Assembly: GCF_001570365.1 (NCBI RefSeq)
Contig: NZ_BBYK01000076.1
Location: 1-64,000 of the forward strand
Length of the DNA stretch: 64,000 nt
Reading direction: 5' to 3'
Source of the DNA: Microtetraspora fusca
Lineage (GTDB): Bacteria > Actinomycetota > Actinomycetes > Streptosporangiales > Streptosporangiaceae
Part shown: positions 35,601-40,696 of the stretch, piece by piece
Numbering within the stretch: position 1 is the first letter of the stretch
How the letters are laid out: every line of letters begins with the position of its first letter
Made by a program: the position numbers and the translations under genes
The notes under the pieces: model-generated
Database searches by the model: none
Told to the model about the DNA's origin: nothing
The model's input: the letters and a program-made list of their open reading frames with translations, nothing else

Positions 35601-36147
35601 TCACGTTGCCGTGAGTGACGGCCACGCCCTTGGGGCGGCCGGTGGAGCCGGAGGTGTACAGCAGGTAGGCGAGGTTGTCCGGCGCGGCCGGGCAGGCGGG
35701 CGCGGCCGCCGGGTCGACCTCCGCCGGCTCGTTCGCCCCGGGTACGGCGAGGCGCCGCAGGGCGGCGTCGCCCATCGCCTCGCCGACCGCCTCGGCTCCC
35801 GCCGGGTCGCACACCACGATGTCCAGGCCGGCGTCGGCGGCCATGTCGCGCAGCCGCAGTCGCGGGCCGCCCGGGTCCAGGGGCACGTAGCAGCCGCCGG
35901 ACAGCAGTACGCCGAGGACCGCGACCACCATCGCGGGCCGCCGCTCCAGGCAGATGCCGACCGGGGTCTCCGGGCGGACGCCGAGCGCGCGGAGCCGGGA
36001 GGCCAGCAGCGCGGCCCGGCGGACCAGCTCGGCGTACGTGATCTCCTCGTCCCACTGGGCGACCGCGACCGCGTCGGGCACGGCGCGCGCCCGCTCAAGG
36101 ATCGCGTCGACGACGGTGGGCCCGGCGAGGGACGGCCGGCCGCTCAT
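32620..36147 (-). CDS. NRPS, A-T-C-T
   Basis: A 1175-residue protein. The A domain (about 15-500) has [20 protein letters not shown] and SGKVDR; I read its pocket as DVLFVCAVAK, which I cannot assign. T1 has Ser541 in GGGDSITAMRL. The C domain (about 580-1010) has an intact HHAVFDG near residue 726. T2 has Ser1090 in GGNSLALAAV. The second T has no adenylation domain of its own, so its substrate must arrive in trans or it must receive the product of another unit. The C-terminal tail is Arg/Thr-rich and could be a docking segment. ATG 36147 overlaps the LanB-like stop by 4 bp. Confidence 0.92.
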   Translation of the reverse strand: MSGRPSLAGPTVVDAILERARAVPDAVAVAQWDEEITYAELVRRAALLASRLRALGVRPETPVGICLERRPAMVVAVLGVLLSGGCYVPLDPGGPRLRLRDMAADAGLDIVVCDPAGAEAVGEAMGDAALRRLAVPGANEPAEVDPAAAPACPAAPDNLAYLLYTSGSTGRPKGVAVTHGNVMTFVTAWAAISGADETTRALAAASLGFDVAVLDQLVPLAVGATVLLVGDVDRTDPARLRRFIAEHRVNWGFLTPAVLSLLDPAALPGWRTVMCGAESVPAELINRWATPGRRFIHAYGPTETTVAATAVEVTAPQVAPVPIGYPLPGYRCHVVDERLRPVEPGVEGELVIGGPAVARGYIGRPATTAGVFVPDPFSGEPGARLYRTGDMARYTQDGQVVFLGRRDGQVKIRGQRIEVGEIAAVLQEHPRVTQAAVEAVPRPGGGLELVAFLTPEDAPDDVEYAASRLTAAMLPGRVLRLRELPVNASGKVDRARLRELADADRPAGDVPEGTTTTERALAAIWRRLGIGADFFAGGGDSITAMRLVAAVRDELGLDVTVDDVFAGRTLPEIATRFDKAARRTEPELARGNPPTLAPPQRRLWFMDQLAPEAAPYNIALAQRLRGPLDRDALRAALRAVAERHDVLRWRIRQTAGVPYAVCEPPSDVDLPVVDLSAYGPAERDARLRTLLAAGAAAPLDLAAAAPWRAWLYTLAPDEHVLALTLHHAVFDGWSVDVLYTDLAAAYAAGVADRTADLPPLRASYADYAVWRAERDLRDGAADLAWWSEHLRDAPTVLDLPRDRPRPAEQTYRGAQACLALPAETDAAVRGLAADLGATPAGVLLAGLGRLLHRLTGSADHVIGAVVADRRVAAFDDLVGFFIDMVPLRLRSDDEADFATQVRRATRELMDVAAHPAAPLERVVEELGIARDPSRAPLTQVMFNVLNLTEPRLDLPGLRGEEIDVDKPGSPFDLTVYVMERGGGFEVEFLYNPDLFDAARVDAMLADYANVVGALAANPAAPAGAVALPERLSPEAAPGAMRVAEPTAAPLPPVGAGTAATEELIAAIWREVLERDGFSPDDNFFDIGGNSLALAAVHARLCARLGRDLRMVDLFRYPNIRTLAAHLDAQADDTGGTTEAVNPEIARAASRAEARRNRTRRPRRAPSTTGQENDHE

Positions 36148-38417: not shown

Positions 38418-40696
38418 CGCGCACCGCCCGGGGTGAGGGGGTCGGTGATCTGCAGGCGGAGCTCGCTGAAGTAGCGGTCGCCCCGGTGGTCGGGCACCCA
38501 CGACTGGTCGGGGGTGGGCAGGGCCTCGCTGATGGTGAGCGTGGCGTCCGGCCCGGCCGTCCGCAGCATGGTGCCCAGCACGTCCGTGTAGTGCGGGCTG
38601 GTGAGGTCGAAGTAGCAGGGTTTCACTTCAGTGCCGATCTTGATGAACACCTGGTCGGGCAGGCCCAGCCGGTTTCGCCAGGCACGGGCGGCGAGGTAGC
38701 GCCCGCGCTCGTCCGTCACGTCCGCGAGCCCGGTCTCGCCGACCGTGGTGCGCCACGTCTCGCGGGTGATGACGAGCCGGTCGATGGTGATCCGGGGCAC
38801 GTGCGCGCCGGGGACGGTGAGCTTGAACATGTCCAGCAGTTGGGTGCCGAGCATCTCCGCGAATATCTCGATCAGCGGCCACCGCCGCCCGTCCGGGCCG
38901 GTGGCGACGAGCGCCCCGTCCTCGTCGGAGACGGTGGCCGCGGTGGCGGGCAGCAGCCGGTCGGGGTCCGCGCCGCGCGCCTTGCCCACGCCGAGCTGCC
39001 GGTCGCGCGGCCGGGCCAGCCCGTACCCGGTGCGGGTGGTGTGGCGGGGATAGTCCTCGGGATAGAGGATGTGGATCCGCTCCGGCCCCAGGTCGAGGTC
39101 GAGGTCGGCGCGCAGCCGCTCCTGCTCGGGGTGGAACGGGCTGAGCGCCGCGCTGTCCAGGGACGACCACGACGGGTGCATCTCGCCGAGGACAGCCTGG
39201 TAGTCGCCCCGGTTGACGGCGTCCACGTCGGGCGCGCAGATCTGCAGGTCGGGGCTGTGCAGCCGGGCGCCGGACCAGCCGGGTCGCTCGGCGGGGAAGA
39301 GCCGGGCGAGCGGCCCGGCCAGCTCGGCCGAGGAGAGCGTGACCCGGCCGCCGGTCGCGGCGGCGTCCGGCGTCCCGATCAGCTCGGCCCAGCGCCGGGC
39401 GAAGTCGGCCGCCACCGTGCGGAACGGGTTGTCGTCCCCGGTGAACAGCAGGCCCTGGGCGAGGTACCACAGGTCGCCCAGGCGCACCGGGCCCGTCGCC
39501 TCCTGGCTCAGCTCCGCGTACAGGTCGCGCAGGACGTCCAGGCACGCCGCGCCGATCGCGTGCGTGAGCCAGCGGGCGGTGGCGAGCAGGACGTCCAGCG
39601 GCGCCGCGAGGTCGTCCAGGAGCGCGGTGCCGACGGTGGCGTCGAGGTCGCGGGCGGTGTCCTCGTAGCAGAGGGTGCGTCCGGCGTACATCTGGCCGTC
39701 GCGGCGGCGGGGCGCCGCGCCGGTGAGGGCGGTGAACTCCTCGTCGAGGGTGGCGAGGGCGGCTTTGAGTGCGTCGGGGTTCCCGGCCGCGGCGGCTACG
39801 GCGTCGCGGGCGGCGCGGAGCCGGTCGAACCCGGCGGTCGCCTCGGCGCGCAGTCCGTCGTCGTCGATCGCGGCGATCCGGTCGCGCAGCGCGGGTTCCG
39901 CGTCACGGCCGATCGGCAGGGCGGCGTCCCAGGTGACGAGGTCGCGTTCGACGAGCCGTTCGAGGAGGAGGTAGCCGTCCTCGGGGCGGGGGAGGACGGC
40001 GACGACCTGGTGGGCGGGGGTGCGTCCGTCGCAGCGGCCGAGCAGGTCGGCCTCGGCGGCGGACAGGGTGAGGGGCGGCTGCATCGGACGCAGGATGGTC
40101 CGCTCGTGCAGGGTGAGGTGGGGGAGCAGCGCGGGCGGCCAGCAGCGGCGGACGCGCGGGTCGGCGGCCAGGTGGTCGGCGTAGGCGGCCATCGCCCAGC
40201 TCTCGAAGGTGACGCGCCGCTCGCGCAGCAGTGCGGGACCCGGGCGTACGTCCAGGGCCTGGGTGGAGTCGGCGACGGTGATCCAGCAGACCGGGCCGAA
40301 GAAGCCGATGGTCTCGTTCTTGGCGCAGTACCGCTGCCAGTAGCGGGCCACCGAGCGTTCGCGGGCGCGGCGGCGCGAGGTGCGGTTCGCCCCCGGCCCC
40401 TTCGACAGGATCCCGTCCAGCGTGATCAGCACGCCGGGGTTCTGCCAGGTGACCGCCTCGCGGAAGAGCGGGTCGGCGGCGATCTCGCAGATCTTGGCCG
40501 CTCCCGCGGCGAGCGCTTCGGTGAGCGCCTTCTCGAAGACCTCGGCGTCCCCGTGGCCGGCGAGCAGGTCGTCGGCGGCGGCAGCCGCGGCGGGCGCGGC
40601 GAAGGCGTCCAGCCCGGCGGCGGGGAAGCCGGTGGTGCGCAGCAGCGCGTCCGACCACACCTCCCAGCCGGTGTCCCCCAGCTTCAGCTTCGTCAC
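38414..40696 (-). CDS. LanB-like protein 2 (lantibiotic dehydratase N-domain, PEARL-like)
   Basis: A 760-residue paralogue of the adjacent gene. The first 390 or so residues and the last 130 are nearly identical between the two, including RYWQRYCAKNETIGFFGPV and GAAPRRRDGQMYAGRTLCYE. Residues about 395-480 and 530-620 differ strongly. It also lacks the elimination domain. GTG 40696 was chosen because it overlaps the thioesterase stop by 4 bp and GGAGGT lies 7 nt upstream. The divergent middle segments probably decide tRNA or acceptor choice, so the two proteins may act on different substrates. The enzymatic activity is inferred from family membership. Confidence 0.88.
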   Translation of the reverse strand: MTKLKLGDTGWEVWSDALLRTTGFPAAGLDAFAAPAAAAAADDLLAGHGDAEVFEKALTEALAAGAAKICEIAADPLFREAVTWQNPGVLITLDGILSKGPGANRTSRRRARERSVARYWQRYCAKNETIGFFGPVCWITVADSTQALDVRPGPALLRERRVTFESWAMAAYADHLAADPRVRRCWPPALLPHLTLHERTILRPMQPPLTLSAAEADLLGRCDGRTPAHQVVAVLPRPEDGYLLLERLVERDLVTWDAALPIGRDAEPALRDRIAAIDDDGLRAEATAGFDRLRAARDAVAAAAGNPDALKAALATLDEEFTALTGAAPRRRDGQMYAGRTLCYEDTARDLDATVGTALLDDLAAPLDVLLATARWLTHAIGAACLDVLRDLYAELSQEATGPVRLGDLWYLAQGLLFTGDDNPFRTVAADFARRWAELIGTPDAAATGGRVTLSSAELAGPLARLFPAERPGWSGARLHSPDLQICAPDVDAVNRGDYQAVLGEMHPSWSSLDSAALSPFHPEQERLRADLDLDLGPERIHILYPEDYPRHTTRTGYGLARPRDRQLGVGKARGADPDRLLPATAATVSDEDGALVATGPDGRRWPLIEIFAEMLGTQLLDMFKLTVPGAHVPRITIDRLVITRETWRTTVGETGLADVTDERGRYLAARAWRNRLGLPDQVFIKIGTEVKPCYFDLTSPHYTDVLGTMLRTAGPDATLTISEALPTPDQSWVPDHRGDRYFSELRLQITDPLTPGGAR

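Follow-up and report, generated by a model that had tools for sequence, protein, structure and literature searches.

Why would an operon for a nonribosomal peptide synthetase-polyketide synthase (NRPS-PKS) product in a soil actinomycete contain two adjacent genes for LanB-like proteins? The question is raised by a 64,000-nucleotide stretch of Microtetraspora fusca DNA (contig NZ_BBYK01000076.1, positions 1 to 64,000; hereafter the window), in which PEARL1 (38414..40696, minus strand, 760 residues, GTG start) and PEARL2 (36144..38417, minus strand, 757 residues, GTG start) are named after the peptide aminoacyl-tRNA ligases (PEARLs) that they resemble. On balance, they are probably two PEARL-type ligases of the same kind as SnaE, dedicated to the NRPS-PKS product, and each would add one tRNA-derived residue. 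In the proposed mechanism, each PEARL would phosphorylate a free carboxylate using ATP, the amine of an aminoacyl-tRNA would then attack the phosphorylated carboxylate, and the tRNA would be hydrolysed off, leaving one added residue per enzyme. PEARL2, of a type that we call alpha, would act first and PEARL1, of the beta type, would then elongate the new terminus, so that two tRNA-derived residues are added in an order that we infer from sequence. This reading builds on the computed fold, residue conservation, the operon, recurrence of the arrangement, and two sequence types, of which beta never turned up without a non-beta neighbour. More tentatively, a two-step tRNA-dependent module may be widespread in NRPS-PKS lines, where an alpha PEARL followed by a beta or third-type PEARL would add two ordered residues to a carboxylate that arises via a distinct group of partner condensation (C) domains and not by ureido reversal; gene conversion would homogenise the copies, and selection would keep a block of ~200 residues near the predicted acceptor pocket distinct.

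Fold and active site of the PEARL pair

A sequence-only reading of this DNA had described two LanB-like proteins of about 760 residues without the elimination domain, set between an NRPS and a thioesterase (TE) gene by 4-bp overlaps on both sides, and all of these features were borne out. The two proteins are 77% identical over 760 columns. PF04738 was the sole Pfam family matched (E = 3e-24 for PEARL1 and 7e-27 for PEARL2), and an NCBIfam search returned no match at E 0.01. Overlaps of 4 bp occur at three junctions (TE/PEARL1, PEARL1/PEARL2 and PEARL2/NRPS). Every PF04738 match in the 9.02-Mb draft assembly fell in PEARL1 or PEARL2, and profile searches for the elimination domain PF14028 gave no match in the two proteins or in the draft genome; as a positive control, the same model matched 18 of 36 other genomes searched and none of 14 built-in control genomes. 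No tRNA genes were found in the 64-kb window.

Sequence searches of the PDB, with one protein or with a profile, did not recover LanB; it was found by fold comparison alone, which matched the structure model to the LanB glutamylation-domain fold, a match whose absence the sequence-only reading had named as a refutation. Both copies keep the PEARL-like ATP/carboxylate-site residues RYDEHRRFKER, for which BhaBC-Trp numbering was mapped by spacing and not by alignment. The LanB fold is also what an ester-forming glutamyl transferase acting on a Ser hydroxyl would have, but the conserved ATP-site residues and the absence of PF14028 matches from the genome make that activity very improbable. The mixing of tRNA-dependent and NRPS-PKS chemistry that had been suggested for this operon is supported as the likely function of the pair.

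The absence of a nearby precursor peptide gene also held. We compared 16 small open reading frames (ORFs; 20-150 residues, mostly outside genes, 12-51 kb of the window) with six related regions, and no conserved small reading frame was found beside the operon among them, ORFs inside genes or far away being outside the search. Two of the 16 had matches in the related regions. The first (45011-45169) was ruled out as a precursor peptide, being divergent-promoter DNA in which indels disrupt the frame in Streptosporangium canum; the second (50884-51036) lies outside the operon and is 20 residues long in one species.

Recurrence and two sequence types

A scan of 84,980 species genomes gave 159 stretches encoding PEARL relatives, from which 77 distinct loci were kept and examined. 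At least one C, ketosynthase (KS) or thiolation (T) domain match was present in 70 of these, and at least two adjacent PEARLs in 40, so the pairing in the window is not due to chance. All PEARL overlaps were 4 bp in 35 of the 39 loci with at least two retained ORFs, in a survey that skipped ten matches by length. The two closest named relatives are Microtetraspora niveoalba and M. glauca, and Streptosporangium minutum carries three copies. In five more loci (L079, L100, L120, L101, L097) a second PEARL lies on the same contig at a distance of 12-28 kb, and these second PEARLs cluster with L119_p1 as a third type (support 99).

The first copies of Micromonospora formed one group (36 rows, with 2 from Actinophytocola) and the second copies a separate one (35 rows, with 1 from Actinokineospora), each with local support of 100 in a FastTree phylogeny of 118 rows, before which L047_p2 was dropped; forty sites discriminate first from second copies at the 90% level among 33 Micromonospora copy pairs. 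For counting, L103_p1 and L047_p2 were dropped from 119 ORFs, leaving 117 rows, and beta was defined by P508 plus L620. This rule selected 36 rows in 36 loci, including window PEARL1 (P508, S515, V570, L620), whereas PEARL2 is of the non-beta, alpha type (A508, S515, F570, A620). A non-beta ORF shares the locus with beta in 35 of the 36; in the other, L105, the partner is frame-shifted yet has alpha residues. Non-beta copies make up 39 of 40 single-row loci, which include some with a dropped partner (L044, L047). Among the 38 loci with at least two rows, the order is alpha-beta in 33, beta-alpha in the window and alpha-beta-alpha in S. minutum, with three misfits. Both copies could instead perform the same step, the duplication serving dosage or being transient, as their 77% identity and the one-copy cluster of M. 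glauca with the same modules might suggest; this is unlikely given that two types are kept across families, that every beta copy found has a non-beta neighbour and that a sequence block described below groups by type.

Some of these loci had features of their own. The frame-shifted first PEARL of L105 (8668-13127, Micromonospora sp. NBS 11-29), beside an intact second copy, may be an assembly error. The single PEARL of M. glauca (L045) has a Ser/Gly/Pro/Glu-rich insert of ~45 residues near residue 450. Five PEARL-like genes lie within ~21 kb in one genome of the same family (L042 and L043, G034:C1:150000-189999), perhaps a pearlin cluster. Three loci from Actinomadura and its kin (L107, L114, L116; PEARL near 10000-12300) had no C, KS or T domain match nearby, and their PEARLs are accompanied by genes for an AMP-ligase, a KASIII-like protein (L107, L114) or a major facilitator superfamily (MFS) transporter (L107, L116), with a 4-bp PEARL/AMP-ligase gene overlap in L116; these are possibly small-acid aminoacylation pathways.

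A mosaic between the window copies

Identity between PEARL1 and PEARL2 per 40 residues is 0.72-0.95 up to residue 360, 0.47-0.75 over residues 361-640 and 0.80-0.90 thereafter. In a tree of residues 377-460 plus 506-625, window PEARL1 joined beta copies from other families in a group of 20 rows (99.9), while in a tree of the remaining residues nine Microtetraspora and Streptosporangium copies grouped together (100). One account would be gene conversion with the block retained by selection. The larger part of the block (residues 506-625 of PEARL1, 38822..39181, minus strand, coordinates from residue numbers) starts next to the conserved E505/H507, and in the available part of the BhaBC-Trp report (PMC11962472) the helix that follows the corresponding His is suggested to flank the acceptor pocket. 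By analogy, the block may therefore set acceptor choice.

Several points weigh against the proposal of two tRNA-dependent steps. For every member of the family, ATP and tRNA use and the addition of one residue are predictions from sequence and fold. Ten of the 11 active-site residues were matched to BhaBC-Trp by motif and spacing, R635 having no named counterpart; Y337 sits in a stretch of the model with a predicted local distance difference test score under 50; in one protein, G034_a, the E505 position is occupied by R, and PF04738 failed to match one of the three proteins from G034. The cluster of M. glauca has a single PEARL yet retains the same modules, and therefore the second step would be dispensable. 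The adjacent pairs L093 and L119 break the alpha/beta rule, as does the second copy of L072 by one residue (M620). Regarding the mosaic, the block boundaries were taken from the window pair's own divergence, so the contrast between its copies is in part built in, which does not apply to the block's grouping with Micromonospora second copies. Approximately unbiased tests, in which the block rejected a single clade of the nine copies (p = 0.019) and the rest rejected the beta clade (p = 3e-38), compared groups named after the trees had been seen. Third-position identity (0.60-0.96 before residue 360, 0.50-0.93 in 361-640 and 0.62-0.65 after 640) does not simply follow the block, and therefore any gene conversion would be patchy or old.

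The proposed acceptor carboxylate

The NRPS that follows PEARL2 (32620..36147, minus strand) has, by domain and motif search, the layout A2-T2-C2-T2b, where A is adenylation and the second T domain has no A domain. This T domain, noted in the sequence-only reading, does exist, but the role of PEARL acceptor proposed for it did not stand. In the 66 loci with a C2 match, the next domain is a T without A in 62 and an A domain in two, and two loci end there. KS1, the ketosynthase of the A1-T1-KS1 protein at the head of the operon, is present in 58 of the 62, the remaining four being cut at contig or locus ends, and was not seen around the two loci with an A domain after C2, one of which (L099) covers over 40 kb. 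Since KS1 tracks the A-less T2b, the A1-T1-KS1 protein probably serves it. Moreover, the PEARL mechanism as given in the available part of PMC12945691 phosphorylates a free carboxylate and releases a free acid, so PEARLs would not be expected to load a thiol, and loading of T2b by them is hardly credible.

A PEARL adjoins the thioesterase in 56 of the 77 loci and A2 in 61, whereas the later modules vary. This constancy makes it somewhat likelier that the acceptor carboxylate sits on the conserved front end (A1-T1-KS1 / A2-T2-C2-T2b) than that the PEARLs extend the C-terminus of the product after TE release, although we hold the front end to be only a little short of an even chance. Extension of the C-terminus, the native activity of PEARLs, would fit the near full-length C-A-T-TE-MFS relatives in 10 of 12 genomes searched, linked to a PEARL cluster in all six fetched of the ten; with terminal modules varying among clusters, we consider it somewhat unlikely. 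Within the front end, the A1 code is nearly constant (DAPHLGGF[AV] in 8 and DMTHVGGFA in 2 of the 10 clusters read), a point in favour of an acceptor carboxylate on the side chain of a residue that the line has built in (the A1 or A3 unit). The A1 code, which we take to resemble a Glu code in part, had no match in the literature searched, and the window A3 code (DLTKVGEVG) is presumably Asn-like, so such an acceptor is unlikely. The PEARL product as A2 substrate was also disfavoured: the Asp of an A-domain code binds the free alpha-amine, and the A2 codes read retain it.

According to the available part of PMC11212132, SnaE acts following a ureido-type C domain with the motif EHHxxHDG. The window domains read LHHAVFDG (C2) and THHIVSDG (C4), and EHHxxHDG was found in none of the window's C domains and in none of the 77 loci. 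In a tree of 68 C domains, drawn from the fetched loci only, with no reference classes, some rows labelled by motif and one Actinophytocola domain from the C3 position mislabelled C2, the ureido-type domains (7 rows, 100) stood apart from the C2 domains of PEARL clusters (19 rows, 100). Threopeptin-style ureido chain reversal was thus rejected for this cluster. C2 could be a second, non-ureido chain-reversing domain, after whose action the carboxylate of the A2 residue stays free for the PEARLs to extend as SnaE does: the initiating A-T-C layout is like that of SnaA (A-T-C-A-T) and is kept in L097 and L099, and the C2 domains form their own group. We know of no chemistry for such a domain, and with the motif absent and C2 outside the ureido group we give this little weight. 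The EHHxxHDG pattern occurred in 6 of 296 genomes sampled, including M. fusca once, in a second NRPS-PKS region (L128, G000:C91:1-20000; EHHLVHDG) with similar regions in G295 and G190; no PEARL lies on that contig, and an A code there is presumably Arg-like.

Other genes of the operon

The minus-strand operon runs from ~44963 to 17177. It begins with the A1-T1-KS1 protein (41454..44963, minus strand, A1 code DAPHLGGFV), in which the domain search found no acyltransferase (AT) domain after KS; its C-terminal end resembles a post-AT linker, and the KS has the His motifs EAHGSG and KTNIGH. The stand-alone thioesterase (40693..41457, minus strand, 254 residues, PF00975), PEARL1, PEARL2 and the A2-T2-C2-T2b protein follow. 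Next, all on the minus strand, are a PKS with KS-AT-KR-DH-T domains (27141..32627; KR, ketoreductase; DH, dehydratase), an MbtH-like protein (26888..27073), an NRPS with C3-A3-T3 (23655..26990 as the longest ORF, the true start probably being near 26891), an in-frame fusion of C4-A4-T4-TE to an MFS transporter (18148..23658) with A4 code DVWHISLID, which we take to be Ser-like, and a TauD-family oxygenase (17177..18151). The relatives of the fusion are 64-87% identical. Upstream, a divergent promoter region (44964..45126) separates the operon from a BTAD/NB-ARC transcriptional activator (45127..47034, plus strand), the probable cluster regulator; this intergenic DNA is strongly conserved across three related species and perhaps holds regulator-binding sites. 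A flavin monooxygenase (12297-13985, minus strand) resembles PtlE-type Baeyer-Villiger enzymes, under that model's cut-off.

Comparison with known systems

SnaE, from the threopeptin (sna) cluster of Stackebrandtia nassauensis, is the only characterised NRPS PEARL in the literature searched; by a June 2023 count of its authors, ~2000 NRPS/PKS clusters carry PEARL genes (available part of PMC11212132). As described there, it is a PEARL-like protein in an NRPS-PKS cluster with no precursor peptide, a stand-alone thioesterase, an MbtH protein and an initiating A-T-C followed by a KS-AT module, as in the window. In contrast, SnaE is single and uses a carboxylate that a ureido C domain has set free, while the window PEARLs are paired and without the ureido motif or clade. 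SnaE is set apart here by its description; a PEARL of genome G018 that has a ureido-type C domain nearby is 37-38% identical. The concept of an NRPS PEARL was thus already known, through a precedent that the sequence-only reading does not name. Its statement that no tandem pair had been described agrees with the searches: the word "tandem" is absent from the available SnaE text (PMC11212132), and paired alpha/beta PEARLs without a ureido partner are not described within the literature searched. Ureido logic does not cover window-type PEARLs. From the paired family, which is common among the Micromonospora loci recovered, one would expect products in which as many as two residues escape forecasting from A-domain codes, and natural alpha/beta pairs offer material to map the determinants of acceptor or amino acid choice.

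PEARLs of ribosomally made peptides, such as BhaBC-Trp/BhaB7, TglB and AmmB2, are likewise LanB-like with ATP-site residues and several copies per cluster, judging from the available parts of PMC11962472, PMC12550832 and PMC12945691, but act on a ribosomal carrier peptide, of which none was found beside the window operon among the 16 ORFs tested. Class I lantibiotic dehydratases and the split TbtB/GodF share the glutamylation-domain fold with the window PEARLs, which differ in having a PEARL-type ATP site, no PF14028 and no precursor found. Finally, PacB of the pacidamycin pathway also performs an aminoacyl-tRNA-dependent addition to an NRPS-made chain, although with a FemABX-like GNAT fold and not a LanB-like one, as stated in the available part of PMC12945691.
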